Assembly (NCBI RefSeq): GCF_030389965.1
Contig: NZ_CP128399.1
Span: 682,001 to 746,000, forward strand
Reading direction: 5' to 3'
Length of the DNA stretch: 64,000 bases
Origin: Candidatus Chlorohelix allophototropha
Lineage (GTDB): Bacteria > Chloroflexota > Chloroflexia > Chloroheliales > Chloroheliaceae
Shown here piece by piece: positions 39,071 to 56,298 of this stretch. Position numbers and translations under genes: made by a program. Positions within the stretch are counted from its first letter, which is position 1. Every line of letters begins with the position of its first letter. The notes beneath the pieces were generated by a model. It worked only from the letters and a program-made list of their open reading frames with translations. It was not told where the DNA came from and ran no database searches.

Positions 39071-39970
39071 TTGGAAAATAATAAACTTAAATTTATTTAT
39101 CTATCTCTAGCAACCTCTTTCGCAACTATAACCCTAAAAGCGGTTGCTTTTTTGTTGACCGGCTCGGTCAGCCTTTTGTCAGACGCGATGGAGAGCATCG
39201 TCAATGTTGTTGCCGCTTTCACTGCGCTAATTGCCTTGAAGATAGCAGCGCGTCCTCCCGATAAAACTCACCAATATGGGCATGAAAAAGCCGAATTTTT
39301 TAGCAGCGCTATTGAAGGTGGGCTAATTCTAGTAGCGGCTTTCGCAATTGTAAGCCAAGCTATTCCGCGTTTATTCAACCCGAAGGAACTTGAAAGCCTC
39401 GGTTGGGGCTTGGGGGTTTCAATGGCAGCTACCCTGCTGAACTTTATTGTGGCGCGGACTCTTATAACCGCGGGTCGCAAGCATGATAGCATTGCTTTGG
39501 AAGCCGACGGTAAGCACTTAATGACCGATGTAGTAACTTCGGTGGGGGTGGTAATTGGCTTGCTGATAGTTTTACCTACAAACTGGTTACTACTCGACCC
39601 GATTATCGCTATTCTGGTGGCATGCAACATTATTTTTGAGGGTGGCAGGCTGATAATGCGTAGCGTGGATGGCTTGATGGATAAGACTTTGCCTGAGAGC
39701 GAGATTGCACGGATTAATAAGACGATCAATGAGGTGGTGAAATCCTCGAACGGGCAGGTAAATTTCCATAATTTGCGCACTCGCAAAAGTGGCGGATTCC
39801 GTTTTGCCGAATTGCACTTGCTAACGCCGGGGAATTGGTCGGTGCTGGAAGCGCACCAATGGTCAGAAGAGATACAAGAGGCTTTAGGCAAAGAATTTAG
39901 CAATATCCGGGTTTCGATTCATGAAGAGCCGATAGAAGACCCCCGCGCTCACAGTGATTCTTGGAGCTAG
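39071..39970 (+). CDS. Cation diffusion facilitator (CDF) family metal exporter
   Basis: 299 aa. Proton-coupled efflux of divalent metals (Zn, Fe, Mn, Co or Cd). Six hydrophobic segments in residues 1-200, then a cytoplasmic metal-binding domain (about 205-290). Key sites: LLSDAMESIVNVVAAF in TM2 (Asp of the transport site), HQYGHEKAEFFSS between TM2 and TM3 and EADGKHLMTDVVTSVGVVIG in TM5 (with the His and Asp of the transport site). The C-terminal part has the usual NFHNLRTRKSGGFRFAELHL. Start is TTG at 39071 with AAGGGA 8 bases upstream; no ATG fits. Metal specificity cannot be read. Confidence 0.92.
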   Translation: MENNKLKFIYLSLATSFATITLKAVAFLLTGSVSLLSDAMESIVNVVAAFTALIALKIAARPPDKTHQYGHEKAEFFSSAIEGGLILVAAFAIVSQAIPRLFNPKELESLGWGLGVSMAATLLNFIVARTLITAGRKHDSIALEADGKHLMTDVVTSVGVVIGLLIVLPTNWLLLDPIIAILVACNIIFEGGRLIMRSVDGLMDKTLPESEIARINKTINEVVKSSNGQVNFHNLRTRKSGGFRFAELHLLTPGNWSVLEAHQWSEEIQEALGKEFSNIRVSIHEEPIEDPRAHSDSWS

Positions 39971-40022
39971 TAGTAGCAGGGAATTGAGCGGTCGGTTGGT
40001 TAATGTTACTGTTTCATAGGAG

Positions 40023-41561
40023 TTATAGTGCGCTTGAGGTTTGATTTCCAGAATTTAAAGTTACAACACTTTTGGAGAGGCGGCGACGGCTGGAGACGCT
40101 CTCTTCGAGGGTATCGCGCACTATGATTTCATATAGAAAAGCCTTTGCCCCGCCCTGCCTACGCAAAATACGTCCCAAACGCTGGGTATATTCGGTAGAA
40201 GTAGCCCCGCCTCCCAATATTATGGCTATCTTTGCGGCTGGCAAGTCTACGCCCTCGTTCAATACACGCGCAGTTACAATGGCGGGGAATTCTCCGGCAC
40301 GAAATCCGTCCAATATCGCTTTGCGTTCGGCGGTGGGAGTTTGGTGAGTAATGGCGGGGAGTAGAAATTGTTCGGAAAGCTCGTAAACAGCCTGATTTGT
40401 TTCGGTAAAGATAATGGCGCTTTGTCCCTGGTGTAGCGCCATAATACGCGCTAGCGCAAGTCGTTTGGCACGCGCATTCTCGATTATTTGCTCCATTCTC
40501 GCTTTGTAGAGCAACGCCTGACGATAGAGTTTGTTTTTGTTTTGCTCGCGCATGAGCGTGTTATACCATTTCGCGCCAAAGCTTTTCCACATGCGCTGCG
40601 CAAAGGGTGAATAAAACGCTTTAAGTTCGTTATATTCCTGTGCTTCCGCCTCTGTAAATTTTACCCTTACCCTTACCGTTTCGTATTCAGCCAGATAAGT
40701 ACCTGCCATTTCTTCAGGGGTTTTGTAATAGCAGGGCGGTCCGATTAGCTCTTGTAACAGCATATGGTCTTCAAATTCGGCGGGGTAGGTAGCAGTTAGG
40801 GCAAGTCGTTTGGGCGCTATCGAGAAACGAGCGGCTTGTTGCCAAATCGTACCGGTGAGATGATGTACTTCATCGCATATCAATAGGTAAAAGCGGTTTC
40901 CCAGTTCCTCTAGCCTTTGTGAGGCGCTGGAATAGGTGGTTACGGTGATGGCACGTATATCTTTTTTCTCACCGAAATATGCGCCGATGTTTTCCTGACC
41001 ATAGACATTGCTAAGATTCTCATACCATTGATGTAACAAGTCAAGTTGTGGGACTATGATTAAGGTAGGCGCGCGCACCGTTTCGATTGCCAACATCGCT
41101 ACCATGCTCTTGCCTGAGCCTGTGGGCAATACCACAGTGCCACGCCCTCCCAATGTTTTCCAAGACTCGATTGCTTCAAGCTGATATGGACGAGGCGTAA
41201 ATGTTGGCGGTGGGTTTACTGCATAGGCAGCGCGTTGCTCAGCCACTTTGTGTTCAGCTTTAGGTTCGGACTCATTACTCAAGCGTTCGAAGCGAAAACC
41301 TCTAACTGCTTGATGTCGGTAACGGGGGGCGTTATTGGTATAGCCCTGCTCTGCCAACCAGCCTTTGATTTCGGGGTAACGGTAGGCGGGTGCGACCCAA
41401 TGTCCGGCGTGCCACACAAAATAGTCAGGCAGAGAAGGGGCATCTTGTGGCACTGCTTTTAGAATAAGCGCCCCGCCTTCAAACACCAAACGGGGCTGCT
41501 CATATCTATCTAAATTCAGGGTTAATTGAGCTTCGGGAGCAGGAGAAGGTTTCTTTTTCAT
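40023..41561 (-). CDS. Superfamily 2 DEAD/DEAH helicase (XPB/Rad25-like)
   Basis: 512 aa. Residues 1-115 are an N-terminal region of unknown type; the motor then has RPYQLEAIESW (Q-like motif), Walker A VVLPTGSGKSMVAMLA, motif Ia TLIIVPQLDLLHQWYENL, motif II LICDEVHHLTG, motif III ALTATYP, motif IV IIFTETNQAVYEL, motif V VLNEGVDLPAA and motif VI EYTQRLGRILRRQGG. The layout is that of XPB/Rad25-like repair helicases found beside McrB-type or phospholipase D nucleases, although none is adjacent. Its ATG overlaps the stop of the YceD gene (ATGA at 41558-41561), so the two are translationally coupled. Confidence 0.88.
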   Translation of the reverse strand: MKKKPSPAPEAQLTLNLDRYEQPRLVFEGGALILKAVPQDAPSLPDYFVWHAGHWVAPAYRYPEIKGWLAEQGYTNNAPRYRHQAVRGFRFERLSNESEPKAEHKVAEQRAAYAVNPPPTFTPRPYQLEAIESWKTLGGRGTVVLPTGSGKSMVAMLAIETVRAPTLIIVPQLDLLHQWYENLSNVYGQENIGAYFGEKKDIRAITVTTYSSASQRLEELGNRFYLLICDEVHHLTGTIWQQAARFSIAPKRLALTATYPAEFEDHMLLQELIGPPCYYKTPEEMAGTYLAEYETVRVRVKFTEAEAQEYNELKAFYSPFAQRMWKSFGAKWYNTLMREQNKNKLYRQALLYKARMEQIIENARAKRLALARIMALHQGQSAIIFTETNQAVYELSEQFLLPAITHQTPTAERKAILDGFRAGEFPAIVTARVLNEGVDLPAAKIAIILGGGATSTEYTQRLGRILRRQGGAKAFLYEIIVRDTLEESVSSRRRLSKSVVTLNSGNQTSSAL

Positions 41562-42283
41562 TCCTCCAGCCGTAAATTTTTCAAAGCAGACCAGCGAACA
41601 TCCACCGGAGCGGCGGTGTCTTCTTCGACTTCCACTTCTTCATTATTTACTCGCTCTAGCTCACTGTACAAACCGGGGCAATCCTCGCCACAATGCGGAT
41701 ATAAGGGCAGGCTTACCAGAATTTGCTGTCGTAGCGCTTCTCCTAAGTCAAGTAAGTGGTTTTCGTCAATCACCAGTTTTTCATCGTCAAAGCCTTCTTG
41801 CGGTTGAATCGGTAGCCCGGTAATCACATCAATACTGGGGCGATAAATATCTTCTAATTCAAATTCAATATGCGTAGCGAAATCGTTCAGACAGCGCACA
41901 CAATTTAGTATGGAGTCCGCTTCGAATTTTCCCTGCACCAACGCATCGTTGACTACTTTGGTCAGGTGAACATGCCCTTTTATATTGGTAGCAACGGTCG
42001 CATCGTTATCATCGAGGTTTAATTTTGCAGTTTGTACATCATAGCTACGGGTCGCCCCTTCATGAGAGCGTAGCAATTGCGCCACATTAAAAATCAGATC
42101 GCCATTTTTATCAATTATGATATGCGCTTGCCGATTTTGAAAACGAGTCGTGCGTCTATGCTCACGCTCGTTATTCCTTGCGGACTCGATATTTAACGGT
42201 CTTGGCTCAGGGCTGGGATAATTGAAATTAAAACGGGTTCGCGACTGACGAGGAATACGCTTGGGTTGTTCTGAATTATCCAT
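41558..42283 (-). CDS. YceD/DUF177-family protein
   Basis: 241 aa. The C-terminal 150 residues carry the DUF177 pattern: VNDALVQGKFEADSILNCVR, CLNDFATHIEFELEDIYRP, LLDLGEALRQQILVSLPLYP and HCGEDCPGL. The CVRC and CGEDC pairs are possible metal ligands. The N-terminal 70 residues are polar (RIPRQSRTRFNFNYPSPEPR) and probably disordered. DUF177 genes normally precede rpmF (ribosomal protein L32) and take part in 23S rRNA or ribosome biogenesis; here no rpmF follows and instead a helicase gene overlaps its stop. Confidence 0.85.
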   Translation of the reverse strand: MDNSEQPKRIPRQSRTRFNFNYPSPEPRPLNIESARNNEREHRRTTRFQNRQAHIIIDKNGDLIFNVAQLLRSHEGATRSYDVQTAKLNLDDNDATVATNIKGHVHLTKVVNDALVQGKFEADSILNCVRCLNDFATHIEFELEDIYRPSIDVITGLPIQPQEGFDDEKLVIDENHLLDLGEALRQQILVSLPLYPHCGEDCPGLYSELERVNNEEVEVEEDTAAPVDVRWSALKNLRLEE

Positions 42284-42313
42284 TTTTATACTTCTCGTTT
42301 CTAGTTGAGACGA

Positions 42314-43165
42314 TTAATCCCCGTCTTCGTTTTCTTGCTCTTGTTCTTTGGGTGGCGGTTTTGGCACTGCCCTAAGAACCGGCTGCCGATTCGGAGTAAA
42401 GAAATTCCCACCTCTTTCGGGCGGCTTGGGGTTGGGCTGCACCGAAGGTTTCGCCTGATTCGGTGGTTGCTGCGGCGGTCGCTGCTGCTGAGGTTGGTTT
42501 GCTGGTACGGGCTGTGGTTTCTTTGTTATAGTGGGGGTAGGCTGTGCTGGTTGCCTGCCACTTTCGGCAGCGGCATTAGAATTCTTTTGTGCCACTTTTT
42601 CAGCCGGGACATACTCAGGTTTATATTGTTCTTGATATTCGTCAATTTGTTGCTGGTATTGTTCAGCCTGATCTTTGAAGCTACGCAACCCATTTTGAAC
42701 CATGCTAAAATGTTTGCCCAGTAAGGTTTCCAACTCCTGAAGTACCTGCACTGCGTATTGGTTAGCGCCTTCCCGCATTTCTTGCGCCTGAGCCACCGCT
42801 TCATCATACATCGACTGTGCTTGCATGTGCATCTCATCCGACTCTTCGGTGGCAACACTAATAATAATCTCGCGTTGCCGTTCCGCTTCCGCCAGCAAAC
42901 CTTTTTCCCCTAGCATATGTTGCCGTTCGCGCTCTGCTTGCTCAATAAGGTGTTGGGCATCTTCAGTAGCATCTGCCAGAATACGCTCACGCTCAAGTAA
43001 GGTACGTTTGGCAATTTTAACTTCTTCCGGCACAGTAATACGCATCTGGTCAATTAGATCATAGCATTCCTGCTCATCGATCATAATCTTGTTGCCAGTG
43101 AGCGGCACTCTTTTGCCATTGCGTATAAGGGCTTCAAGCCTATCAATTAAATAATCAATGTCCAT
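42314..43165 (-). CDS. DivIVA-like/ATP synthase B-like coiled-coil protein
   Basis: About 283 aa. MDIDYLIDRLEALIRNGKRV, then VPEEVKIAKRTLLERERIL and a long heptad-rich helix (ADATEDAQHLIEQAERERQH through SMYDEAVAQAQEMREGAN) form a continuous coiled coil of about 150 residues. The C-terminal 90 residues are Pro/Gln-rich and presumably disordered (QPQQQRPPQQPPNQAKP). The combination is seen in DivIVA-like cell-pole or division proteins; Chloroflexota homologues sit in the same place near coaD. The start at 43165 is chosen because the 27 codons further upstream have unlike composition (CIVQISINRKIIIYSP). 30 bases separate it from the YceD gene. Confidence 0.75.
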   Translation of the reverse strand: MDIDYLIDRLEALIRNGKRVPLTGNKIMIDEQECYDLIDQMRITVPEEVKIAKRTLLERERILADATEDAQHLIEQAERERQHMLGEKGLLAEAERQREIIISVATEESDEMHMQAQSMYDEAVAQAQEMREGANQYAVQVLQELETLLGKHFSMVQNGLRSFKDQAEQYQQQIDEYQEQYKPEYVPAEKVAQKNSNAAAESGRQPAQPTPTITKKPQPVPANQPQQQRPPQQPPNQAKPSVQPNPKPPERGGNFFTPNRQPVLRAVPKPPPKEQEQENEDGD

Positions 43166-43295
43166 GCCTAGTGCTGTAGGGGAATAAATAATTATTTTTC
43201 TGTTTATACTGATTTGTACTATACATAATTGTACAATACTACGCAACAGTTGTGCCTCACAAGGCTGTTGCGAGAAACGTTTTTAGAGCGATAAT

Positions 43296-43386
43296 CGGAG
43301 AGGATGAGAGAGGATGAGTTCAAGGGGACACCCCTTGCGACCCCGACAGGCGTTCCACCTGCACCCCCTTTCCGAACTTGCAACTA
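43296..43386. repeat. Interspersed structured repeat, copy 2 (copy 1 at 27395-27485)
   Basis: Nearly identical to 27395-27485 over 91 bases, same orientation. The larger unit (43260-43393) is flanked by CAGTTGTGCCTCA (43247-43259) and CAGTTGTGTCTCA (43394-43406), a 13-base direct repeat with one mismatch. Ends show weak inverted similarity (AAGG..GTTGC.AG). Confidence 0.8.
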
Positions 43387-43403
43387 CCCTAAGCAGTTGT
43401 GTC

Positions 43404-43901
43404 TCAAGTTAACTTTATTGCCACAGTATTATAGGCTGTATAAAGCTTTGTGGCTATGTGGGGTGGTACCATTTGAGATACATCTCCACCTAGCCGCGCA
43501 ATTTCCTTTACCATGCTGCTGGCAATATAGGAAAAATTCTGCGATGTCATTAAATAACAAATCTCAATATGAGGAGCTAGGTTGCGATAATTCTGGGTTA
43601 ACTGTAATTCATAATCAAAATCACTAACGGTACGAAGCCCTCGAATGATCACCTGTGCGCCAATTTCATGAGCATAATGAGTGGTCAGCATTTTATAATG
43701 TTCCACCCGAATGTTGGGAACATTCTTTATAGCCTCAATAATCATAGCTTTACGCTCTTCGGTAGAAAAGAGCAAATTTTTAACAGGCGCATCATAGGGA
43801 GCAATTACTACTTCATCAAATATTTTTGCAGCCCGCGTTGCAATATCAATATGACCATAAGTTATCGGGTCAAAACTCGCCGGATAGAGCGCCAGTACCA
43901 C
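43404..43901 (-). CDS. coaD: Phosphopantetheine adenylyltransferase
   Basis: 165 aa. Fourth step of coenzyme A synthesis: 4'-phosphopantetheine plus ATP to dephospho-CoA. Nucleotidyltransferase motifs: LALYPASFDPITYGHIDIAT (T/HxGH site), VVIAPYDAPVKNLLFSTEER, IIRGLRTVSDFDYELQL and SYIASSMVKEIARLGGDVSQ (ISSTxVR-like site, here ASSMVKE). Length is normal. The start is a GTG at 43901 with AGGAGGAATAAATTCT just before it. It follows rsmD by 14 bases in the common rsmD-coaD order. Confidence 0.95.
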   Translation of the reverse strand: MVLALYPASFDPITYGHIDIATRAAKIFDEVVIAPYDAPVKNLLFSTEERKAMIIEAIKNVPNIRVEHYKMLTTHYAHEIGAQVIIRGLRTVSDFDYELQLTQNYRNLAPHIEICYLMTSQNFSYIASSMVKEIARLGGDVSQMVPPHIATKLYTAYNTVAIKLT

Positions 43902-43915
43902 AGAATTTATTCCTC

Positions 43916-44710
43916 CTAGTCGGTGTCAGGTGCAGTTAAAAGTTCGGGTGGTGGTTCACCTTCCATATAAATAGAGAAAGCAGAATCGCCATGTTGGCGA
44001 AACCGGATACGTTTTAGCATTGCAGAGGACGTATCCGGTTTATCAGCATCAATGCCATCCCCCTCGTAGCTGTCAGCCAGTACTACACGAGGCGAATGTC
44101 CAATTATTACCAACCCTCCCGACTTTAGCAAACCACTTCTAGCCACATGTTGAATGGTTTCGGGAATTTTGGGATCAGCATAAGGCGGATCAAGAAAAAT
44201 TATATCATATTTGGTATCTTCTACAGGTAAAATAGCTAACTGCTCCTCTACCGGGTTTTGATTTTCATCAATTTCGAGTTCCAATGTTAGTCGTGCATCC
44301 CGCCAACTGCCACCCTTGCGGCGATGTAATCCTCCGGTGGCGCGGTGCTTCCTTTGGCTACTATCGTTAGAAGGCGGTGCATTTATAAAACTGGTTACAC
44401 TGCGATTGTTAACCCGCGCTAATTGCGCAAAACCTGTATGTTCAAGGTTATCTGAAATGATTCGGCAAGTTCCGGCGTTAACTTCTACAAAGTCCGCCCA
44501 CTCTGCTCCTCTTGATAGCGCTTCTATCCCTATAGAACCTGTGCCTGCATACAAATCTAGCACTCTGCCCCAATCCCGTTCGAGCTGCGACAGAATATTA
44601 GAGAGCATGGAATATACTGCGCCCTTGACCTTGTCAGCCATAGGGCGTGTACTCGCGCTTTTCGGACCTTTCAGGGTATGCCCTTTGGCAATACCTGCAA
44701 TAACACGCAT
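43916..44710 (-). CDS. rsmD: 16S rRNA (guanine(966)-N(2))-methyltransferase RsmD
   Basis: 264 aa. Methylates G966 of 16S rRNA in the assembled 30S subunit using SAM. Motifs: MRVIAGIAKGHTLKGPKSAS, VLDLYAGTGSIGIEALSRGA (SAM site) and YDIIFLDPPYADPKIPE (catalytic DPPY). It is about 70 residues longer than usual: between the SAM site and DPPY there is an insertion of roughly 55-60 residues, rich in Ser, Arg and Glu (SQRKHRATGGLHRRKGGSWR, then LTLELEIDENQNPVEEQL). Frame is continuous through it. Located between the PD40/C39/PA14 gene (23 bases upstream) and coaD. Confidence 0.93.
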   Translation of the reverse strand: MRVIAGIAKGHTLKGPKSASTRPMADKVKGAVYSMLSNILSQLERDWGRVLDLYAGTGSIGIEALSRGAEWADFVEVNAGTCRIISDNLEHTGFAQLARVNNRSVTSFINAPPSNDSSQRKHRATGGLHRRKGGSWRDARLTLELEIDENQNPVEEQLAILPVEDTKYDIIFLDPPYADPKIPETIQHVARSGLLKSGGLVIIGHSPRVVLADSYEGDGIDADKPDTSSAMLKRIRFRQHGDSAFSIYMEGEPPPELLTAPDTD

Positions 44711-44733
44711 TTTTGTATCAATTCTCCAGTTCG

Positions 44734-47379
44734 TTAGCCGATTTTATCCCAGCTTAGCTTTGCTACACCGCTGCCACTGGCATTGAAATATTCCAGCACA
44801 ATTGTGATAGTGCCTGCCAGCGAAAAATCGAAGGTATAGGTTTGAACGCTACTGGGTCTCCAGTATTCATTGGGATTATCCCCGCTTGCGGCTACCCCGT
44901 TCAAGAACATTCGGAATCCGTCATCAATCGTTGCGCTGAACCGATAATTTCCTGAATCAAAACTAATTGTTTTTGTCCAACGTGCCGAGAAGTTGGTAGG
45001 GAAGATGCCGAGCTTTCCACCTTCTGGCCCGCCTGTTCCAAAATCATAATTCAAATCAGGTTCATCGCGGATACAACTAGGAGAACCTGCCAATCCCGGA
45101 TTATTGAAATATTCCGCTTTCCAACCGTTGAATTGGTCAGACCAAGCATAGGCATCATTCGGTTGTGGTTTGCTGGTATCCCATACCAAATAGCCCGCTT
45201 CAAAATTAACCTGCCGAAGCCCGTCAAGGTTGGTAAATTCATCACTCATTACCGAACCGAGCGGGCCGCTGCTACCGTTATAAGCATCTCGATATTTTGA
45301 TAGGAATTGTCCCTCAATTACAAAAGCCGGTTGTAGCGCCGGAATCGGTGAAGCATTTGGCTGGTCGTTACGATCATCGAGTGTGATTATGGATTGTCCA
45401 AAAGCACCCCCGTTAAATTCCTGTACCCAACGTGGGTTATCGGGCGGGGCGACCTGTGCAGGAGAATTCTGTCCTGTGCCAAGCGCTGAGATACCACCAT
45501 TTCGTTTGAAAGCCGCCACGAACCGCGCTTTCTGCTCAGCGTTTGTCCCATCTCCCACAATCACCGGCACTCCATCCTGTATGGAAGGCGGTTGCGGCTG
45601 TGGTTGCGCTATAGGCGGTTGCGGTTGTGCTACAGGTGGTTGCGAAACTACCTGTGGTTGGCTCTGTGCCGGTTGCTGCGGTAACGGACTATCAACCAGC
45701 ATCATCCAAGGGCAGAAACCAAACTCCCACCATGCGTAAATATCGTCAGAACCGCCCTTTTTGCGCCAGTAGGGATCGTTACAAATGAACCTACCATCAT
45801 TGGTTAGCCCCTTCACCAAAACAACATGACCGAAGCCATGCACAGTTGTACCAAGCACTACTGGCTTTCCGTTGCGTAGTTGTTGCTTTACCAAATCCTG
45901 AGTAGGGCTAACCGAACGTGCACCAAGTCCGTGTTTGCTCACGAAATCCGCCGCTAACCCGCCATAAGCATCCCCGCCATTTGTACAAGCGCCGTATGCG
46001 CCCGCCACCCAATGCCCTTTGGGGTCGGGTTGGGTTCGATTAATGCTCACGCCGCGCCTGTTTGTATAGGCGTTACTTATATACCAGCCATAAGGACTTA
46101 AACCCCACTCGTAGTTGTCATTGCGCTGGTCGAGCAAACCATAAGCTGCCAGCAGCATGGTTGAAGAAGTAGGACCACAAGCCCAATTGCCGTCAAAATT
46201 TGGGGCGGTATCATGTACCTGATTTATATAAGGGACATCTAGCAAAACATCAACATTGCCTCCGGCTGAGAAGGCGCTAACCCCTCCACTACTGCTAATT
46301 GTGCTATCTGCCTGGGCGTTTAGAGTAGTTTGTACTGAAGAATTCCAATCAATTACGGCTCGGCGAGTGCCATCGCAGCCAATGAATTCCACGCCGCTGC
46401 CTACATGCGCGAAAACTCCCGAATTATCGTTCGCCCAGCACACCACATCGAAATAATCCACATCGGCTTGTGCCGGTAAAATCATCTTTGGTTGTTCAGA
46501 ACCGTCAGTTTTTACCGTCCAAACTGTACTTCCCGCGACCTGTCCCTGTTCATCGAAAGTGCGGCTGCTAAAAGCTAACAAGCCATTGTCAGGGCTGGCG
46601 TTTATATCCGTTACGGCAAACTCAACATTTACGGTATATATCTCTGCGCCACTATTTGCATCTACTGCTCTTATCGGCGTGGCATGGTTGGACTGAAGAT
46701 AAGGAGAAGGGCTAAGGCTGTAAACCAGCGCGTCTTTATCACCTACTTTACATAATATAAGGTTGTAGGCATTGTGATTAACCCCATCAAGTACATCGCT
46801 CAGCAAAAATTCGTGTTCTTTAACCCCTTCAAGCGTTATTTCGGCATAAGTTGGGGCGGCTCCAACCCCATAACCCTTGCTACTTATATACAGTTTCTGA
46901 CCATCTGAAGAAAACCCCGTGATACTTTCAGCATCATCCCCATATATTTTAGCGGGTGTGCTACCATCAAGCGGAACCAGCCATATTTCTGATACAGGTT
47001 GCCCATATGGGTCGGAAGTTGGCATAGATTTTATCACCGCCAGTTGCGCCCCATCGGGACTCCAAACCGGATGGCTATAGCGTTCAGACCCGGAAGTCTG
47101 GAAAATAGCCGTTGCCTTAAGCGTAGCTAAATCGGCTAATTTTAGAATCGGACTACCAAGCGCCCCATCCGACATTAGATAAACCAACTTGGTTCCATCC
47201 GGTGAAAGCACCGAATCTACATTTACACTGTTGGGCAGCAAACCCAAATCTGAGGGATCAACCGTTATCGTATGGGATACATTTATACCATTTACTATAT
47301 ATATACCGGGTAAACTACCGGCTGTAGCTACAAATGAACCACTAGCCGGTAAAGCAACGGCGGTTAGTGTATCAGACAT
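44734..47379 (-). CDS. PD40 propeller - C39-like Cys protease - PA14 multidomain protein
   Basis: 881 aa. Residues about 1-385 have TolB/PD40-type propeller repeats (VLSPDGTKLVYLMSDGALGS, HPVWSPDGAQLAVIK, FSSDGQKLYISSKG, SPDNGLLAFSSRTFDEQ). About 390-590 is a C39-like papain-fold peptidase: GNWACGPTSSTMLLAAYG (catalytic Cys), VVLGTTVHGFGHVVLVKGLT (His) and FICNDPYWRKKGG (Asp/Asn). A Pro/Gln-rich linker leads to LGFP-like repeats (GGISALGTGQNSPAQ). The last 130 residues are PA14 (FSARWTKTISFDSGNYRFSA, DDGFRMFLNGV). No signal peptide is visible at MSDTLTAVALPASGSF, which is odd for such a surface-type protein. AAAGGAG lies 8 bases before the ATG at 47379. Third gene of a GTPase/PH/protease set. 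Confidence 0.85.
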   Translation of the reverse strand: MSDTLTAVALPASGSFVATAGSLPGIYIVNGINVSHTITVDPSDLGLLPNSVNVDSVLSPDGTKLVYLMSDGALGSPILKLADLATLKATAIFQTSGSERYSHPVWSPDGAQLAVIKSMPTSDPYGQPVSEIWLVPLDGSTPAKIYGDDAESITGFSSDGQKLYISSKGYGVGAAPTYAEITLEGVKEHEFLLSDVLDGVNHNAYNLILCKVGDKDALVYSLSPSPYLQSNHATPIRAVDANSGAEIYTVNVEFAVTDINASPDNGLLAFSSRTFDEQGQVAGSTVWTVKTDGSEQPKMILPAQADVDYFDVVCWANDNSGVFAHVGSGVEFIGCDGTRRAVIDWNSSVQTTLNAQADSTISSSGGVSAFSAGGNVDVLLDVPYINQVHDTAPNFDGNWACGPTSSTMLLAAYGLLDQRNDNYEWGLSPYGWYISNAYTNRRGVSINRTQPDPKGHWVAGAYGACTNGGDAYGGLAADFVSKHGLGARSVSPTQDLVKQQLRNGKPVVLGTTVHGFGHVVLVKGLTNDGRFICNDPYWRKKGGSDDIYAWWEFGFCPWMMLVDSPLPQQPAQSQPQVVSQPPVAQPQPPIAQPQPQPPSIQDGVPVIVGDGTNAEQKARFVAAFKRNGGISALGTGQNSPAQVAPPDNPRWVQEFNGGAFGQSIITLDDRNDQPNASPIPALQPAFVIEGQFLSKYRDAYNGSSGPLGSVMSDEFTNLDGLRQVNFEAGYLVWDTSKPQPNDAYAWSDQFNGWKAEYFNNPGLAGSPSCIRDEPDLNYDFGTGGPEGGKLGIFPTNFSARWTKTISFDSGNYRFSATIDDGFRMFLNGVAASGDNPNEYWRPSSVQTYTFDFSLAGTITIVLEYFNASGSGVAKLSWDKIG

Positions 47380-47390
47380 TGGAGACTCCT

Positions 47391-48113
47391 TTATCTGGTA
47401 AACATTTGAGGATAAAATATTAATACACTGAGGAACATTAGCAGAATTGCTAAGCACCAGAAACCTAGAATTAGGTTCCCGCTCATAATTATTATACGCC
47501 GTGAAACTACTAGGTTCTCGGCATCATTTAGTTTGAAAATCCAGTTTTTAAACATGCTGTTTGTTTTATCTAGGAAACGCTGACCGGTTCTAGTTGAAAA
47601 GAAAAGAAGGCATAGTAGGAAAGAACCTAAACCTAAAATGCCGGGAAAGGAATGGTTCGACCAAGTTGCAAGTATAGCCAGTCCTGCGTAGAAAAATACA
47701 ATAGAGTTTTGCTTGATAAAATTATAAAAGAAAAAGGGAACCAGTTTAGCATACACTACTTTTGGAATTTCTTCACCGTTGGCTATGGCGCGTTGAATCG
47801 AGCGATCGCGTGCCTCTAGCAGTTTGTGATAAACCGCAGAGGCTTCCTCTTTCAGTTTTAAGGTAAGATTGGGAACTTCACCACGTTCAAAGCTGATGGT
47901 TAGATAACTGAAGTCTTTACGAGATTCGAATTCTACCGTCAGGACGTGGCATAAATCGAAACTTTTATAGCTAACTTTAGTGGTTTGTACTAGCAAGCGT
48001 TCATCGGTAAGATAGTAACGGGGAAATTGGCGGCTTGTACCTCGATAATCTTGCCCCTTCCAGAGCAAGACTTCGCCCGGCAACAGAATAGCTGTTTCTA
48101 CTGAGAGGGACAT
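47391..48113 (-). CDS. Membrane protein with N-terminal PH-like domain
   Basis: About 240 aa. The first 110 residues (LPGEVLLWKGQDYRGTSRQF, YYLTDERLLVQTTKVSYKSF, HVLTVEFESRKDFSYLTISF) have the strand pattern and the YLTDERLL motif of bacterial PH-like domains. Then come four hydrophobic segments in two hairpins (NSIVFFYAGLAILATW, FPGILGLGSFLLCLLFF; then GNLILGFWCLAILLMFLSVL). The ATG at 48113 is taken; a TTG at 48137 inside the end of the GTPase gene is possible but lacks a ribosome-binding site. It lies 10 bases after the GTPase stop and 11 bases before the protease start, so the three are one operon. Confidence 0.7.
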   Translation of the reverse strand: MSLSVETAILLPGEVLLWKGQDYRGTSRQFPRYYLTDERLLVQTTKVSYKSFDLCHVLTVEFESRKDFSYLTISFERGEVPNLTLKLKEEASAVYHKLLEARDRSIQRAIANGEEIPKVVYAKLVPFFFYNFIKQNSIVFFYAGLAILATWSNHSFPGILGLGSFLLCLLFFSTRTGQRFLDKTNSMFKNWIFKLNDAENLVVSRRIIIMSGNLILGFWCLAILLMFLSVLIFYPQMFTR

Positions 48114-48123
48114 AGGCGCAAAC

Positions 48124-48624
48124 CTATTTCTTTTCAATGGATTGTATGGCTAGTTTGGCAAGCATGCTAAAGATTTGATCGACATTATCACCGTTACGCG
48201 CAGAGGCTGTCAGATGAGGGGCATGCGCGTAATTGGCAAATATTTCTGCCCATTTTTCGGGGAAACGGAAGCCTAAATCTATTTTGTTACCTACTACCAT
48301 AATTCCAGCATTCGGGATGGTAGAGCGGCACATATTATTCCAGACTGCCAGTTGTTGCAATGTTTTCTCACGGGTTACGTCATATACCAACATACAACCG
48401 GCTGCACCCCGGTAAAACTCAGTGCGTTCAAAATATTCGCCTGCTATATCCCATAATTCCAGCTTTACAGGACGACTGCCAGCCATCGCTATATGAGTAG
48501 TGACGTTTAAACCAAGGCTGTGGCTATACTGCCCACTGAACTTTCCCATGGTATATTGTTCTACAAGGCTTGTTTTGCCTACAGTCTTTTCACCCGCTAC
48601 TATCACCTTTATGCTTTGCAGCAT
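48124..48624 (-). CDS. Ras/Rab-like small GTPase
   Basis: About 166 aa, a complete small G domain: G1 IVAGEKTVGKTSLVEQYTMG, G2 Thr in SHSLGLNVTTHIA, G3 VKLELWDIAGEYFERTEFYR, G4 GIMVVGNKIDLG and G5 PHLTASARNGDNVDQIF. The WDIAGE segment and overall length are closer to eukaryotic Rab/Ras and bacterial MglA/Rup-type GTPases than to Era/Obg. The usual catalytic Gln after G3 (DTAGQE) is replaced by Glu (DIAGEY), which often slows hydrolysis. No lipidation Cys at the C-terminus. The start at 48624 is chosen because the preceding residues (CRKIEREPST) are unlike the family. First gene of a tight three-gene set. Confidence 0.88.
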   Translation of the reverse strand: MLQSIKVIVAGEKTVGKTSLVEQYTMGKFSGQYSHSLGLNVTTHIAMAGSRPVKLELWDIAGEYFERTEFYRGAAGCMLVYDVTREKTLQQLAVWNNMCRSTIPNAGIMVVGNKIDLGFRFPEKWAEIFANYAHAPHLTASARNGDNVDQIFSMLAKLAIQSIEKK

Positions 48625-48741
48625 TGTGCTTGGCTCTCTTTCAATTTTCCGGCACAACCCACCGTGATATTATGCTTAAATGTTAATGCTGTGTTTATCG
48701 GATTATACTCTAACCACGCACTCGCTACAATAGTACAGTCT

Positions 48742-49947
48742 TTAATGTTTAAGGCTTTCTATTGCTTCCCAAACTTGAGAAACTGTAACTTTCTCAATCC
48801 CACCCTGTGCAGCGCTAATTGTCTCATATTCATGCAAGGGTAAATTGCTTTTCCAATCTAGATTGGGCGGATATACTGCTTTTCCTCTAGCTGTATAAGG
48901 CCCGTAGGCTATTGGATTGCTCGGTCCGAAAATCGCTATTACTTTTGTGCCACATGCCACTGCCAGATGCATCAAGCCGGTATCATTACCAATAAATAGC
49001 GCGGCTTTCTCAAATAATGCGCCGCTTTCATCTATGTTAAACATACCCACTGTATCAATTACAGATTCGGCTAAACTTTCGGGAATTGCTTGCAATAAAC
49101 GTTCAGCTAATTCACCATCACCCTGTTGTAACGCTCCAATTATTATAACAGTATAATCTTTTGTTATCAGCCTTGTGGCGATTTCAGCGAAATTCTCCGG
49201 TTTCCAGCGTTTGGATTTTACAAGGGTATCAGGGTTGTTGCCTCCCCCCGGATGAATTACAACCAGCTTACCATTGCTATTCTGAAAAGCGGGCAATTCT
49301 CCCAGAAATTTTGCCACCTTGCTCTTTGCTTTATCCGATGGGTAAAACTCCATTTTTGCTGCTGTTGGGTCAAGTCCGGCAGCCCTGAGTACATCCTTAT
49401 AAATTTCAGCTTCGTGCTTTATTATAGCGTTGCGTTCGAGCCGAGAACGGATGTTGAGCGCAAAGCCTCGTCCTCGGCTATCAATCCCCACTCGTAGTTT
49501 TGCTCCTGCCAACCAAGGCAACAAATTCAATAAGGGCGAACGATCCAGCACTATTATTGCTGAATAATGCTGCCTCCGCACTTTACGGGTAAAAGCTAGA
49601 TATTGCTTTAATGTAAAGGAAGAACCGCTAACGCCTGTATCCAATATTCCATCTAGGCGCGGGTTGCCTTCCACTACTGGTTTAGACCAGTCGCTAACTG
49701 CATATTCTAAATGAGCATGCGGCAAAGCCTCTCGAATTGCCGCGATAACCGGAGTAGTAAGAATTACATCTCCCAGACAGCATGGCTTAAGGATAAGTAC
49801 CCGCGCTCCGGTAGGCAAATCTCTCAAGTTTGCGCTATTTCGCTCAAATAGCCTGAACAATAATGCTAGAATCCGGCAAATGAGCGAGATTAGCCTTTCA
49901 CGAATCAGGGCGAGGCGACTACGCCGGAAAGTCCCGGTCTTATGCAT
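48742..49947 (-). CDS. Glycosyltransferase family 9 (heptosyltransferase-like)
   Basis: 401 aa. GT-B fold enzyme of the ADP-heptose:LPS heptosyltransferase family. Motifs: RVLILKPCCLGDVILTTPVI (N-terminal acceptor domain), HYSAIIVLDRSPLLNLLPWL, LVVIHPGGGNNPDTLVKSKR (donor domain) and FIGNDTGLMHLAVACGTKVI AIFG (sugar-nucleotide site). Chloroflexota lack classical LPS, so the enzyme probably acts on another envelope glycan or glycolipid. It begins 6 bases after the fabZ stop on the same strand, implying one transcript; ribosome-binding site is weak. Confidence 0.88.
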   Translation of the reverse strand: MHKTGTFRRSRLALIRERLISLICRILALLFRLFERNSANLRDLPTGARVLILKPCCLGDVILTTPVIAAIREALPHAHLEYAVSDWSKPVVEGNPRLDGILDTGVSGSSFTLKQYLAFTRKVRRQHYSAIIVLDRSPLLNLLPWLAGAKLRVGIDSRGRGFALNIRSRLERNAIIKHEAEIYKDVLRAAGLDPTAAKMEFYPSDKAKSKVAKFLGELPAFQNSNGKLVVIHPGGGNNPDTLVKSKRWKPENFAEIATRLITKDYTVIIIGALQQGDGELAERLLQAIPESLAESVIDTVGMFNIDESGALFEKAALFIGNDTGLMHLAVACGTKVIAIFGPSNPIAYGPYTARGKAVYPPNLDWKSNLPLHEYETISAAQGGIEKVTVSQVWEAIESLKH

Positions 49948-49953
49948 AGATTT

Positions 49954-50397
49954 TTATGCTTGACCGGGGAGTGGTCCTAGAGCAAAGGTCATTTCCCCAC
50001 GCGCGGCTATCTCGCCATCCACAGTAGCAACTCCATGCGCTTTACCAACCGGTCCGCGCACCTGTATCATTTCTGCCTCAAGTCGCAAAATATCGCCGGG
50101 TCGTACCTGTCGTTTAAAGCGCACGCCATCCATGCCGCCAAAAAAGGCGATTCGCCCTTTATTCTGCTCCATGCCGAGCAACGCCACTGCCCCCACTTGC
50201 GCCAACGCTTCAATGATTAACACGCCGGGCATTACCGGGTAATCGGGGAAATGCCCTTGAAAGAACCATTCGTTATAACTCACGCTTTTAATACCTACTG
50301 CGCGTTTGCCCCATTCCACTTCTATTATCTTGTCAAAGAGCAGGAAAGGGAAACGATGCGGAATAATCTTCTGGATTTCGGGGATTGTCAATTCCAT
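49954..50397 (-). CDS. fabZ: 3-hydroxyacyl-[acyl-carrier-protein] dehydratase FabZ
   Basis: 147 aa. Dehydrates 3-hydroxyacyl-ACP in fatty acid elongation. Hot-dog fold motifs: [40 protein letters not shown] (catalytic His) and [15 protein letters not shown] (catalytic Glu region), [18 protein letters not shown]. The true start is the ATG at 50397, with AAAGGAGA 10 bases upstream; the open frame further upstream has unlike composition. Divergent from the zincin gene with a 67-base intergenic region. Confidence 0.95.
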
Positions 50398-50464
50398 GGG
50401 TAGGTTAGTCTCCTTTTTTGAATTAGCTTTTGCCAATTTTACCATATTCGCTATAATCAAGAGC

Positions 50465-50842
50465 ATGAGCAAACTTGAATTTGAAAAATTTGTTAAAATA
50501 GCAATTCGTAAGTTACCACCTCGTTTCAGAAAAGCAATGGCAAGCGGTAATCTGGTAATTGTGGTACAACAACGCCCCACCCGTGAACAACTATTCAAAT
50601 TAAAACTTGATCCGGTAGAAGAAAGCCTGTTCGGTTTATATGAAGGGGTTTCGTTGCCTAATCGCACACAGGGTTATAACATGACCGTACCGGATAAAAT
50701 TACTATTTTTCAAGAACCGTTGGAAGCGGCTTATCCAAATCCTTTGAGTTTGAAAGAACAGGTGCGGCGGACAGTTTTTCACGAAGTCGCCCATTTCTTT
50801 GGTATAAGCGACGAAGAATTAGACGCGATGGGCTGGGGTTAA
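50465..50842 (+). CDS. Minimal zincin-like metallopeptidase family protein
   Basis: 125 aa. Small metalloprotease-like protein (DUF1025-type): [58 protein letters not shown] and the zinc-binding [20 protein letters not shown], in which HEVAH is the HExxH motif and the following Asp/Glu is the third ligand. Length is usual. Physiological substrate unknown. The start ATG at 50465 has only a weak AAGAG upstream; it is divergent from fabZ. Confidence 0.88.
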
Positions 50843-51025
50843 AAAAAGTAACCGTTCACAAAAGTCAGAAAAGTTGTATAAATTAGCTAAAAAATAAGCA
50901 TATCCCACCCCTACGAATTGTTTCTTATGGATATATGCCGTGAGAAAAGGCGGTTCGTACTTGACCTATAATTCACCTAACCCTAAAATTAAGCCGCGAC
51001 TTGCTTTAGATGAGAAGGGGTTTTT

Positions 51026-51274
51026 ATGCAAAGTATTAAACTGCATTCGCATACTGGCGCAGATGGTATGCTTAAACTAGAAGTGCCGATGGGGCTTGCC
51101 AATACCGATTTTGAGATAGTGTTAATTGTACAACCAGTAACAAAAGCCGAATCTAGCCCGGAAGATTTGGGTTGGCCCACAGGCTTTTTTGAGCAGACTT
51201 ATGGAATATTGGCGGATGACCCGATTGAGCAGGTGGCACAGCTTGAATATGAGGAGCGTGAGGAAATCTTGTGA
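51026..51274 (+). CDS. Antitoxin of a VapBC-type pair
   Basis: 82 aa. MQSIKLHSHTGADGMLKLEV begins with a short beta-rich segment like AbrB/VapB-type or DUF2281-like antitoxins, followed by an acidic C-terminal part (FFEQTYGILADDPIEQVAQL, EYEEREEIL) of the kind that wraps around a PIN toxin. GAAGGG is 8 bases before the ATG. Its TGA stop overlaps the toxin GTG start (GTGA, 51271-51274). Confidence 0.8.
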   Translation: MQSIKLHSHTGADGMLKLEVPMGLANTDFEIVLIVQPVTKAESSPEDLGWPTGFFEQTYGILADDPIEQVAQLEYEEREEIL

Positions 51275-51678
51275 TTTACCTGCTGGATAGTAACACCTGC
51301 ATAAAATATATGAATGGTAGGTCTATAGAAGTTCTGCATCGCCTTCAAGCTTTACCCACGCGAGATATTGGGGTTTGTTCGGTGGTTAAAGCTGAACTGT
51401 ATTATGGTGCGATGAAAAGCCAAGACCCGGCAAGATCTCTTGCTGCCCAAATGTTGTTTTTAAATCAGTTTGTCTCTTTGCCTTTTGATGATGTAGCCGC
51501 TGAAATTTATGGTCAGGAACGGGCTAGATTGACCTTACTTGGTACACCCATCGGCGCAAACGATTTGTTGATTGCCAGTATTGCGCTTGCCAATGGGCTG
51601 ACACTGGTTACGCATAACACCCGCGAGTTTAGCCGGATAAACGGACTGCGACTGGAAGATTGGGAAACTACATTTTAA
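51271..51678 (+). CDS. vapC: PIN-domain ribonuclease toxin (VapC family)
   Basis: 135 aa. Mg-dependent endoribonuclease of toxin-antitoxin systems, usually cutting tRNA or rRNA. Acidic active-site residues are visible: IYLLDSNTCIKYMNGRS (first Asp), CSVVKAELYYGAMKS (Glu), GTPIGANDLLIASIALANGL (Asp) and LVTHNTREFSRINGLRLEDW (the N in place of the often seen D, plus the terminal Asp region). Start is GTG at 51271, overlapping the antitoxin stop by 4 bases, as is common in such pairs. All core residues are present, so it is probably functional. Confidence 0.93.
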   Translation: MIYLLDSNTCIKYMNGRSIEVLHRLQALPTRDIGVCSVVKAELYYGAMKSQDPARSLAAQMLFLNQFVSLPFDDVAAEIYGQERARLTLLGTPIGANDLLIASIALANGLTLVTHNTREFSRINGLRLEDWETTF

Positions 51679-51828
51679 CATACGGCAGCAGCGTGCTGGG
51701 CGACTCTTTGTAGAAAACGGTTCTTCTACAAAGTGTGTAGTACGATTGCAATGATTTTTATAAAGTAAGCTTGAGAGTCAGATTCTAAGCAGCAATCAAA
51801 GCAAGTCACGTTAGCAATGAACCAAAAA

Positions 51829-51851
51829 AGAGACGCAATTGCTGCGCCCCT
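51829..51851 (-). terminator. Intrinsic terminator of the isocitrate dehydrogenase gene
   Basis: On the minus strand AGGGGCGCA (51851-51843), loop GCAAT, TGCGTCTCT (51837-51829): 9-bp stem with two G-T pairs, followed by TTTTTT. It lies 27 bases past the stop codon at 51878. Confidence 0.75.
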
Positions 51852-51877
51852 TGATTTTTGTTAAGCTATTTTCGCGC

Positions 51878-53332
51878 TTACTGCCCGTAACTTTGGGTAT
51901 AGCCTTGTACACCGTCGAAATTATATAGGCTTTCAATTTCGACAAAATCTAGTCCTGCCTCCGCGAATTTGCCGAGCAATTCTACCAAGTCGGCATGCGT
52001 GACTTTATGCCCGTTGCTGGTTTGGAAGCGGCAACGCCAATGGTCGGTGTTAAAGGTTTCAGCCATGCCTTCGGGCCATACCTTAACGCCTCGGTTGGTG
52101 ATAATTTTCAGTTCCAACCCTTTAACGGTAATATTTGTCAGCTTTTCCGCCAATTCATTAGCGCTTGTTCCAGTCCAATCTAGAAACACATCTACGCCCA
52201 CCAGTACTTTGATGGCACGCACCGATTCGATTAGGTGCATTTCATGTGAAGCTACCCCGCCTTCATCGCTGGCTTTGTAAGTAACTGTTTTGAGCGTTTG
52301 CGGTTTCTGCCCTAGACGTGCAACAACCGCTTGCGCAAATTCTTTAGTGCCGACCTTTTCCTTACTTACTCCTTCAGTGTAGATGTCATAAGTATGAATA
52401 CCGTCTTCGATGGTGCGTAACCAAGCGTTGTGGACACGTTCCGCTACCTTTGACTGTCCGATATGAACTAGCATCATCACCGCCCCTAGCAATAAACCGG
52501 AGGGGTTCGCCATATTCTGACCGGCGCGGCGCGGCGCAGAGCCATGAATTGCTTCAAACATGGCGGCATGCTGCCCTATGTTACAAGAACCTGCCAAACC
52601 TACCGAACCCGCGATTTGAGCCGCCACATCGGATAGTATATCGCCGTACAGATTGGGCAACACAATCACATCAAAAGCTTCGGGCGTATCTGCCATTTTG
52701 GCTGCGCCAATATCAACAATCCAACTTTCGTTTTCAATATCCGGATATTCTTTGGCAACCTCGTCAAAGACTTTGTGGAATAACCCATCGGTCATCTTCA
52801 TAATATTATCTTTTATGAAGCAGGTAACCTTTTTGCGGTTATACAACTGGGCATATTCAAAGGCATAGCGGATAATTTTTTCGCTACCGGGGCGGCTGAT
52901 CAATTTGAGTGATTGCACCATTTGTTCAGTTTGGCGATGCTCAATCCCGGTATAGAGATCTTCTTCGTTCTCGCGAACAATTACAATATCCATCCCCGGA
53001 TGCTTGGTATCCACAAAAGGATGGTAGGCTACACAAGGGCGTACATTAGCGTATAGACCAAGCGCATTACGAACCGTCACATTGAGGCTTTTGTATCCGC
53101 CACCTTGCGGTGTGGTGATGGGCGCTTTCAGGAAAACTTTAGTGCGGCGGATTGATTCCCAAGCGTCCGCTTCTATTCCGGCAGTATTGCCGCTCAAATA
53201 TACCTGTTCACCCACAGCCACTTTCTCAATTTCGATTTCTGCGCCAGCTTCAAGAATGATTTGAAGGGTAGCATCCATGATTTCGGGCCCAATCCCGTCA
53301 CCATGCGCTACAGATATGGGGGTTTTAGACAT
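51878..53332 (-). CDS. icd: Isocitrate dehydrogenase (Thermus/Rickettsia-type)
   Basis: 484 aa. Oxidative decarboxylation of isocitrate to 2-oxoglutarate in the TCA cycle. Motifs: ISVAHGDGIGPEIMDATLQI, VTVRNALGLYANVRPCVAYH (substrate Arg set), VIVRENEEDLYTGIEHRQTE, CFIKDNIMKMTDGLFHKVFD (catalytic Lys), IVLPNLYGDILSDVAAQIAG (metal Asp pair) and FEAIHGSAPRRAGQNMANPS (adenine site). The C-terminal 140-residue extension after residue 340 (SVRAIKVLVGVDVFLDWTGT) is typical of the approximately 490-aa bacterial subfamily. Cofactor (NAD or NADP) is not safely readable, although NADP is usual. It has its own terminator. Confidence 0.92.
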   Translation of the reverse strand: MSKTPISVAHGDGIGPEIMDATLQIILEAGAEIEIEKVAVGEQVYLSGNTAGIEADAWESIRRTKVFLKAPITTPQGGGYKSLNVTVRNALGLYANVRPCVAYHPFVDTKHPGMDIVIVRENEEDLYTGIEHRQTEQMVQSLKLISRPGSEKIIRYAFEYAQLYNRKKVTCFIKDNIMKMTDGLFHKVFDEVAKEYPDIENESWIVDIGAAKMADTPEAFDVIVLPNLYGDILSDVAAQIAGSVGLAGSCNIGQHAAMFEAIHGSAPRRAGQNMANPSGLLLGAVMMLVHIGQSKVAERVHNAWLRTIEDGIHTYDIYTEGVSKEKVGTKEFAQAVVARLGQKPQTLKTVTYKASDEGGVASHEMHLIESVRAIKVLVGVDVFLDWTGTSANELAEKLTNITVKGLELKIITNRGVKVWPEGMAETFNTDHWRCRFQTSNGHKVTHADLVELLGKFAEAGLDFVEIESLYNFDGVQGYTQSYGQ

Positions 53333-53428
53333 TAGAACCTTTTCTCCTGCTCATAATAAAAATGAGGTATTTACAATATTAATATAACATGCACTGTTTC
53401 TTCACACAAATTGTGCTTAGCAATGATG

Positions 53429-54247
53429 TTAATAGGTTGCCAGCAAATCTTTCCACTTTGCTGCCATTATGCGGTTCTTACCGGTGCGCTCTGTATCAGC
53501 ATGTGCCAGTGTAATTTCGTAGCTAATCCCATCCATTGTGTTAATGAGTAGCGTATCCTCGTTTTGTTTGACCGTGCTGATGTCCTTACGGTGGAGTACC
53601 AACAAGCTTTTGCCGGTTCTGATAGCAGGATTTGGTCGTTTTTCTTTACCGTATATGAGAAGGTAGTGGAGAGTTAAAAGCATTAATCCGGCTTCGGGTG
53701 AAAATCCGTGGGTTTCGCTAAGCAAACGCATGCGTACAGGCTCAGGACCTTGCATAGGCTTTTCAATAGAATAAGGTGCTAGTAACCGTTCCACTTCGGC
53801 TCTATCCTCTTTGCGCAGCATAGAGGCATGCACGAATATTGTCTCAAATTTCGTTAACAGACGGATTCCATTCGCGCCAGTCGGGTCTAGTTTAAATCCG
53901 GTCTTGCCATAGCTGAATCGCTCGTAATCGTAGCACGCGGTTTTGGCACGTGATAGGTCGAACTCCACCAAAATTTTCGACCCGTTTTTTACATATAGGC
54001 AATTGTTTTCATGTACCAGCGTTGTACTTACTACCACTATGCTGACATATATTGCGGTCATTAAACCGATGACACTCAAACCGACTAGCAAGAGTCCCAG
54101 CAGGGCAAGTAGGGTAAAAGTTATCGGTGTGGTATTGATGAGTGTTGCACCTAAACCTACCAACGCTATTCCGAAAAGAATCAGGAAAAGAGCGTTAAAA
54201 ATTAGCTTTACATAACGATTAGGCACAAAACGGAAATTAAACGCCAA
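53429..54247 (-). CDS. Hypothetical membrane protein downstream of ruvB
   Basis: 272 aa, unknown function. Two hydrophobic segments near the N-terminus (LIFNALFLILFGIALVGLG, FTLLALLGLLLVGLSVIGLM) anchor a cytoplasmic beta-rich part (ENNCLYVKNGSKILVEFDLS, IRLLTKFETIFVHAS, RTGKSLLVLHRKDISTVKQN) that resembles a PH-like domain, but the match is weak. Start is a TTG at 54247 with AGGAGA 9 bases upstream. It begins 17 bases after the ruvB stop and is likely co-transcribed with it; the link to recombination is not obvious. Confidence 0.7.
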   Translation of the reverse strand: MAFNFRFVPNRYVKLIFNALFLILFGIALVGLGATLINTTPITFTLLALLGLLLVGLSVIGLMTAIYVSIVVVSTTLVHENNCLYVKNGSKILVEFDLSRAKTACYDYERFSYGKTGFKLDPTGANGIRLLTKFETIFVHASMLRKEDRAEVERLLAPYSIEKPMQGPEPVRMRLLSETHGFSPEAGLMLLTLHYLLIYGKEKRPNPAIRTGKSLLVLHRKDISTVKQNEDTLLINTMDGISYEITLAHADTERTGKNRIMAAKWKDLLATY

Positions 54248-54263
54248 AGCAGGTTTCTCCTGT

Positions 54264-55367
54264 TTATTCGTCAGTTGCGGAATCCCATAAGGTAGATTGG
54301 CGGGTTACAGTTGAGGTGGTATCGGAAGCTACTAAACCAAGCCGATCTCGTGCGCGGGCGGTAGGATTGCGCTTCAGGTGGTCGTAGGCACTTTGAGTAA
54401 CAATGCGCCCACGCGGGGTACGCACAATGAAGCCGAGTTGCAGTAAATAGGGTTCGTATACATCCATGATAGCATCGGTTTCTTCGCTGGTAGCAGCAGC
54501 AAGCGTTTCTATGCCTACGGGACCACCATCGAATTTGTCAATCAAGGCTGTCAGAATGCGCCTATCGCCATCGTCCAGACCTAATTCGTCAACGTCCAAC
54601 ATATTGAGCGCGTCTTGCGCCACTTTGCGAGTAATATGTCCTTCGGCACGAACTTGCGCATAATCTCGCACACGTTTTAGCAAACGGTTGGCGACACGGG
54701 GAGTACCTCTAGAACGGCGGGCAATTTCGGCTGCCCCTTCCGCATCCACCGGAATACGTAATATCACGGCGCTGCGTTGAATTATCAACTCCATTGCCGC
54801 CTGATCGTAAAAATCGAGCCGATAAACTGCTCCAAAACGATCACGCAAGGGCGAAGTTAAGAGCGCAAGACGGGTGGTAGCGCCGATTATGGTAAAGCGC
54901 GGCAACCTGAGATGGATAGTCTGCGCGCTTGGTCCTTTCCCGGTAACAAGGTCAACCGCGAAGTCCTCCATTGCCGGATATAACACTTCTTCAATGGTGC
55001 GGTTCAAGCGGTGAATTTCATCAATGAACAGGATATCTTCACGCTTAAGGTTGGTTAGTATCGCTACCAAATCCCCAGCGCGTTCGATGGCAGGTCCACT
55101 GGTGACGCGAATATTTACGCCCATTTCGGCAGCAAGAATGTTGCTCAGCGTAGTTTTGCCAAGCCCGGGAGGCCCATAAAATAAAACGTGGTCAAGCGGT
55201 TCTTTGCGCGCTTTGGCAGCTTCGATTAATATTTGCAGGCTTTCCTTTATTTTATCCTGCCCTATATATTCAGCAATGGTGCGCGGACGCAAAGTAGCTT
55301 CAAAGGCACGCTCTTCCGGGCGTTTCTTAGCTGAAATAGGTCTTTCGTTGCTTTCAGAATCTAGCAT
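54264..55367 (-). CDS. ruvB: Holliday junction branch-migration ATPase RuvB
   Basis: 367 aa. AAA+ motor that drives branch migration with RuvA. Motifs: [40 protein letters not shown] (Walker A), [20 protein letters not shown] (Walker B), [20 protein letters not shown] (sensor 1 and Arg finger), [20 protein letters not shown] (sensor 2) and the winged-helix C-terminus ([19 protein letters not shown]). A basic Ser/Arg/Lys-rich N-terminal lead and a 25-residue C-terminal tail are slightly longer than in E. coli. No ruvA or ruvC is in the window. Confidence 0.97.
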
Positions 55368-56297: not shown

Positions 56298-56298
56298 C

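Follow-up and report, generated by a model that had tools for sequence, protein, structure and literature searches.

A Rup-family GTPase gene adjoins the gene of a signal-less propeller-C39-PA14 protein in two genera of Chloroheliaceae

Does a small GTPase gene of 'Ca. Chlorohelix allophototropha' L227-S17, which shares a tight run with the genes of a membrane protein and a cysteine peptidase, belong with its neighbours in function, or do these genes only lie side by side? The run lies in a stretch of 64,000 nucleotides (contig NZ_CP128399.1, positions 682,001 to 746,000), here called the window, on contig 1 of a genome that totals 6,086,194 bases in five contigs. The bacterium is a green phototroph that was brought into culture recently. 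The two largest contigs measure 2,961,161 and 2,453,413 bases, and the published genome has two chromosomes (2.96 and 2.45 Mb), one chromid and two plasmids (PMC10972752). A reading made from the letters of the window (the sequence-only reading) had described a membrane signalling system of three components. Its three minus-strand open reading frames (ORFs) and their spacing, 10 bp at 48114-48123 and then 11 bp, are all borne out (Table 1), and codon use gives a coding signal for each ORF in its own frame and in no other. The results presented below reduce the system to a partly conserved two-gene core, which consists of a member of a known GTPase family and a member of a known peptidase family.

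The GTPase itself is of a described kind: by sequence it belongs to the Rup family, Ras-like GTPases of prokaryotes (Wuichet and Sogaard-Andersen 2014, PMC4316618), and it is not part of a Group 1 system. Consistent with the Ras/Rab-like character first assigned to it, the protein matches the Ras family (Pfam PF00071, E 2.4e-31), has intact G1 (GEKTVGKTS), G3 (DIAGE), G4 (NKID) and G5 (SAR) motifs and finds its best solved relatives in Rab14, Rab7 and Sec4. Its switch II is three residues shorter than that of Rab and Ras, and it carries no lipidation motif. In a tree of 33 sequences, in which Chloroflexales proteins represented the Rup family and which also held RAB1A, HRAS and the MglA-like protein of the Chlorohelix genome, its place is among the Rup/Rab sequences and away from MglA, the branch of which is very long. 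The Chloroheliaceae GTPases cluster in this tree at 100/98 support with those of 15 Thermomicrobiales-type genomes (f10, f11 and f13, the last of which we take to be the Sphaerobacter group of the Thermomicrobiales), and the switch II deletion is common to this whole clade; the Chloroflexales sequences stand apart.

The five Chloroheliaceae genomes of our sample span three genera: that of Chlorohelix, a second represented by G083, G084 and G085, and a third represented by G086. Each of the five carries the GTPase in a single copy, the other four proteins being 79-84% identical to that of the window. The Glu noticed at the position of the catalytic Gln61 is real and conserved throughout the family (5/5), the Thermomicrobiales-type genomes having Gln and the Chloroflexales Gly or Ser. 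Because Ras Q61E has a raised intrinsic GTPase activity, with GTP hydrolysis sped up and not slowed (PMC10515638, PMC2987813), this Glu is no sign of a locked-on switch; by analogy with so distant a homologue, it suggests hydrolysis without a Gln-supplying GTPase-activating protein (GAP) rather than a dead switch. The four roadblock (MglB) matches of the Chlorohelix genome all lie far from the window GTPase gene, and the genome's own MglA-like GTPase gene, likewise far from the window, adjoins a roadblock gene at G000:C1:2764326-2765137 (L002, L081).

The relatives of the GTPase have neighbourhoods of their own. In 15/15 genomes of f10, f11 and f13 (L016-L030, L061-L071), the gene lies directly upstream of fmt (methionyl-tRNA formyltransferase) on the same strand; some of these ORFs overlap, and endonuclease V or other genes come after. 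No description of this conserved pair was found in the literature. Group 1 Rup neighbourhoods comprise the GTPase, a coiled-coil protein, a membrane domain protein and a histidine kinase or cyclase (PMC4316618). Most Chloroflexales Rup genes are found in such surroundings, with coiled coil, membrane domain protein and histidine kinase. Sets of this type stand at L073:8101-12552 (presumably from Chloroflexus aurantiacus, as which we also take G007), L074, L075 and L076, with an SH3 domain in the L073 membrane protein and Gly or Ser at the Gln61 position of G3.

The last gene of the run encodes a predicted C39_2 peptidase with intact catalytic residues, embedded in a multidomain protein. A TolB-like β-propeller (residues ~13-344) precedes the C39_2 domain (~381-538), which is followed by a Pro/Gln-rich linker, a domain common to other Chloroflexota proteins (~607-745) and PA14 (~752-878). 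Pfam confirms the C39 protease with PA14 (C39_2, E 1.3e-11; PA14, E 1.6e-10), and the catalytic residues C401, H518 and D535 are invariant across the four propeller proteins. The PD40 propeller stood in part: its match is just below the cut-off in the window protein and clear in the relative P0004 (E 8.9e-8), and by Foldseek (E 4e-10) the modelled N-terminus (residues 13-344, moderate confidence) resembles the propellers of TolB and S9 peptidases.

The protease was also correctly described as lacking a signal peptide. No hydrophobic N-terminal stretch is present in any of the four propeller-C39-PA14 proteins. The phylum-wide search for the protease scored two candidate places per genome, so that other members of this architecture may exist. 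A signal peptide missed upstream of the annotated start was considered and rejected, since the sequence in frame before it lacks hydrophobic character and the start itself is conserved: the ATG at 47379 is preceded by AAAGGAG, and the MSDT start and purine-rich ribosome site are kept in three relatives. The colinear Chloroflexales homologue (G014, P0008; BLASTP E 7e-24) starts with a hydrophobic signal-like segment, and the C39 protein of G033 also has a signal-like N-terminus; the signal would have been either lost in Chloroheliaceae or gained in the others.

Further C39 proteins are encoded in G086. One of 1179 residues matches C39 and PA14 in Pfam, has no propeller and was not counted as a homologue of the full architecture. 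A C39_2-like protein at L046:1483-2172 carries Ala where the catalytic Cys would be expected (QLAAGPT) and is probably an inactive peptidase. At L045:538-2940 (G086:C227), an Amidase_2 gene with endolysin-type PHROG matches precedes a C39-PA14 gene amid ordinary bacterial genes, and at L114:1332-10323 (G086:C552), prophage tape measure and tail genes are followed by the gene of a 141-residue protein that combines an N-terminal hydrophobic stretch with a C39 fragment of the same family.

Conservation of the neighbourhood is confined to the two outer genes. In all three genomes of the second genus (L007, L008 and L009, from G084, G085 and G083), the GTPase gene is followed on the same strand by that of a propeller-C39-PA14 protein ~40% identical to the window's and then by an α/β hydrolase gene, with no membrane protein gene between GTPase and protease. 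The nearest locus outside the Chlorohelix genome is that of 'Ca. Chloroheliaceae bacterium L227-5C'. A DNA comparison of window positions 38000-56500 with G083, G084 and G086 reveals that the rsmD/coaD and GT9/FabZ blocks flanking the run are conserved units which lie on other contigs in the second genus. GTPase and protease are the only gene pair common to the window neighbourhood and these loci and thus stay together through rearrangement. Also counted in favour of the pair is an identity across the family of ~80% for the GTPase against ~40% for its protease partner. Of the expected co-occurrence in relatives, therefore, the GTPase-protease part holds in three genomes, the full set of three genes recurs in none, and the third genus lacks the association altogether.

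Of the product of the middle gene, only the membrane character is supported (two clear transmembrane helices); the 'PH-like' label is left without support, as the N-terminal 119 residues have no Pfam match even at E 10, the protein has none in NCBIfam, PHROG or the Protein Data Bank (PDB), and a single-sequence AlphaFold model is unusable (pLDDT 47.6). No credible relative was detected in 158 genomes of the class, 400 of the phylum, the family at E 10 or plasmids, the weak matches containing stops or covering short stretches. Known from the Chlorohelix genome alone and missing from the second genus, the protein is best read as a species-specific add-on between GTPase and protease. With the membrane protein in one genome and the third-genus GTPase elsewhere, a conserved three-component membrane signalling system finds no support.

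Taking these observations together, we tentatively propose that the Rup GTPase and the signal-less propeller-C39-PA14 protein form a lineage-specific, functionally coupled pair in two Chloroheliaceae genera, in which the GTPase would control a cytosolic, propeller-gated peptidase. The protease resembles secreted Chloroflexota proteases; devoid of an export signal, it is probably cytosolic and would act inside the cell. The N-terminal propeller might gate or recruit substrates for the C39 domain, as in cytosolic prolyl oligopeptidases, and might bind the GTPase in its GTP-loaded state. Having Glu instead of Gln61, the GTPase could hydrolyse GTP without an MglB-type GAP and behave as a self-timing switch, and in Chlorohelix the membrane protein may anchor both partners at the inner membrane. 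Gene adjacency and the missing signal hint at a GTP-controlled intracellular protease without proving it. The sequences show gene content, lineage, adjacency in two genera, intact catalytic residues and the lack of a signal peptide; interaction, localization, gating, proteolysis and the direction in which the signal changed are what we infer. A specific version, in which the Ras-like GTPase acts directly as the switch of a cytosolic cysteine protease resembling secreted ones, appears rather unlikely; such a GTP-gated propeller protease would have no described counterpart. No description of a GTPase/C39-protease combination was found, and the literature on Rup GTPases in Chloroflexota yielded only the 2014 survey.

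Several observations weigh against coupling. In the third genus (G086, L006), the GTPase gene has other neighbours and no protease gene beside it. The gap between GTPase and protease genes in the second genus measures 164-179 bp and contains promoter-like sequence, so that a transcript boundary, which would have spoken against a joint unit, may be present in this genus. In 15/15 Thermomicrobiales-type genomes, the same GTPase lineage always adjoins fmt and not a protease gene, and its main job may therefore be unrelated to the protease. The model of the window protease (P0003) is poor in the C39 region, and modules of the C39_2, PA14 and propeller types usually occur outside cells.

The exception in the third genus, the gap in the second and the association of the sister clade with fmt make it about as likely that the two are neighbours without shared function. 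A Rup GTPase of general role would then lie beside an unrelated, inherited C39 gene, and the tight spacing would reflect compact packing upstream of rsmD/coaD, into which the run indeed continues tightly although both genes are unrelated. The high conservation of the GTPase, which stands alone in L006, agrees with this view. What speaks for the functional pair instead is that only GTPase and protease are retained between the window and the loci of the second genus, which we judge unlikely under random gene order (a qualitative judgement).

Third in likelihood, and improbable on balance, is a lysin-like cell-wall enzyme: the signal-less C39-PA14 protein would leave by a non-classical or holin-like pathway, which the membrane protein might provide, and cleave peptidoglycan cross-links. 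It is retained because two C39 proteins of G086 are signal-less, one of them (52% identical to residues 378-880) encoded behind the gene of a signal-less Amidase_2 protein with matches to endolysin families. The C39 fragment behind prophage tail genes in G086, a weak endolysin PHROG match of P0003 (E 2.6e-4) and the C39-like domains of mycobacteriophage endolysins (PMC3314691) point in the same direction. However, the prophage copy is a fragment, a propeller is not an endolysin part, and the second genus has no membrane protein gene beside the protease gene. A viral origin of the protease was rejected, as two scans of viral contigs returned no relatives and a phage search matched PA14 only, with nothing for C39. 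The locus in the window does not look like a phage lysis cassette, which would have prophage context, a holin and viral homologues: no viral relatives were found, and the flanks are housekeeping genes.

Still less probable is that the protease is exported after translation by some route not yet recognised and works outside the cell, as its secreted Chloroflexales relatives do, the GTPase being irrelevant. Signal-like N-termini do occur in the G014 protein, the nearest in architecture beyond the family, and in the C39 protein of G033, but all four members lack a signal, their start and ribosome site are conserved, and the propeller starts already at residue 13. That the genes form a two-component system of the Group 1 Rup or conservon type is very improbable and largely excluded by gene content: the GTPase superfamily is the same and Chloroflexus carries a Group 1 gene set (PMC4316618), yet the window GTPase falls in a separate clade (100/98) and has no coiled-coil, histidine kinase or cyclase gene beside it. 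A search for the domain of the third Group 1 gene elsewhere in Chloroheliaceae gave only Thr/Pro-rich low-complexity matches; with this domain unmatched in the family, the GTPase would need a different partner. An anti-phage defence system was considered as well and rejected, as PADLOC models gave no match at E 0.1.

Table 1. The gene run of the window and its downstream flank
Feature	Position in window	Strand	Basis or remark
Rup-family small GTPase, 166 residues	48124..48624	-	Pfam, G motifs, tree
Membrane protein, 240 residues	47391..48113	-	2 clear (perhaps 4) transmembrane helices, C-terminal half
11-bp gap before protease ATG	47380..47390	-	ribosome site AAAGGAG within gap and at its upstream edge
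TolB-type propeller/C39/PA14 protein, 881 residues	44734..47379	-	Pfam, modelled fold
rsmD	43916-44710	-	directly downstream of protease gene
coaD	43404-43901	-	housekeeping block together with rsmD

The tight same-strand run extends beyond the protease gene into rsmD and then coaD; these are not assigned to the unit, because in relatives their block is found away from both the GTPase and the protease gene. Two other features of the window were recorded. A 1059-residue protein with lamin-tail and endonuclease/exonuclease/phosphatase domains (7402-10581, minus strand) is probably a secreted nuclease. At 49954-50842, a FabZ-like ORF on the minus strand overlaps a zincin-like metallopeptidase ORF on the plus strand when called by first start; the true start of the former probably lies further downstream (MELTIPEIQ...).

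Comparison with known systems sets the proposed pair apart from each of them. The window GTPase shares with Group 1 Rup proteins the Ras/Rab-like G motifs, the absence of an adjacent MglB gene, the presence in Chloroflexota and a catalytic Gln that is not conserved; it differs in its separate clade, shorter switch II (by three residues), Glu at Gln61 and lack of Group 1 partners. A G3 motif without catalytic Gln is a Group 1 trait that it displays, though the sister Thermomicrobiales clade has Gln. Like MglA/MglB and the actinobacterial conservons, it is a bacterial Ras-like switch with a gene partner, but the window locus has no roadblock gene, the MglA-like/roadblock pair of the genome being at C1:2764k. 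The secreted Chloroflexales protein P0008 has propeller, C39 and PA14 in colinear order; unlike the window protease, it begins with a hydrophobic signal-like segment, contains three stretches of PA14 and comes from a genome in which the window GTPase finds no match. Prolyl oligopeptidases (S9) also place a β-propeller, matched by the modelled one alongside TolB, ahead of the peptidase domain, whereas the catalytic domain here is a C39-type cysteine peptidase and not a serine α/β hydrolase. Endolysins with the Lysin A N5 domain of mycobacteriophages (PMC3314691) resemble the window protein in having a C39-like peptidase without signal peptide, but the latter has a propeller and PA14, no prophage context and no viral relatives among those searched. 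Up to the 2014 survey, no Rup GTPase had been experimentally characterised (PMC4316618). The separate Rup lineage with short switch II has lineage-specific neighbours, the signal-less C39 protein in Chloroheliaceae and fmt in Thermomicrobiales-type genomes, which are concrete candidate partners. We know of no output for Rup GTPases outside Group 1, and a GTP-gated protease, if it exists, would add a new kind of output to those of Ras-like switches in bacteria.

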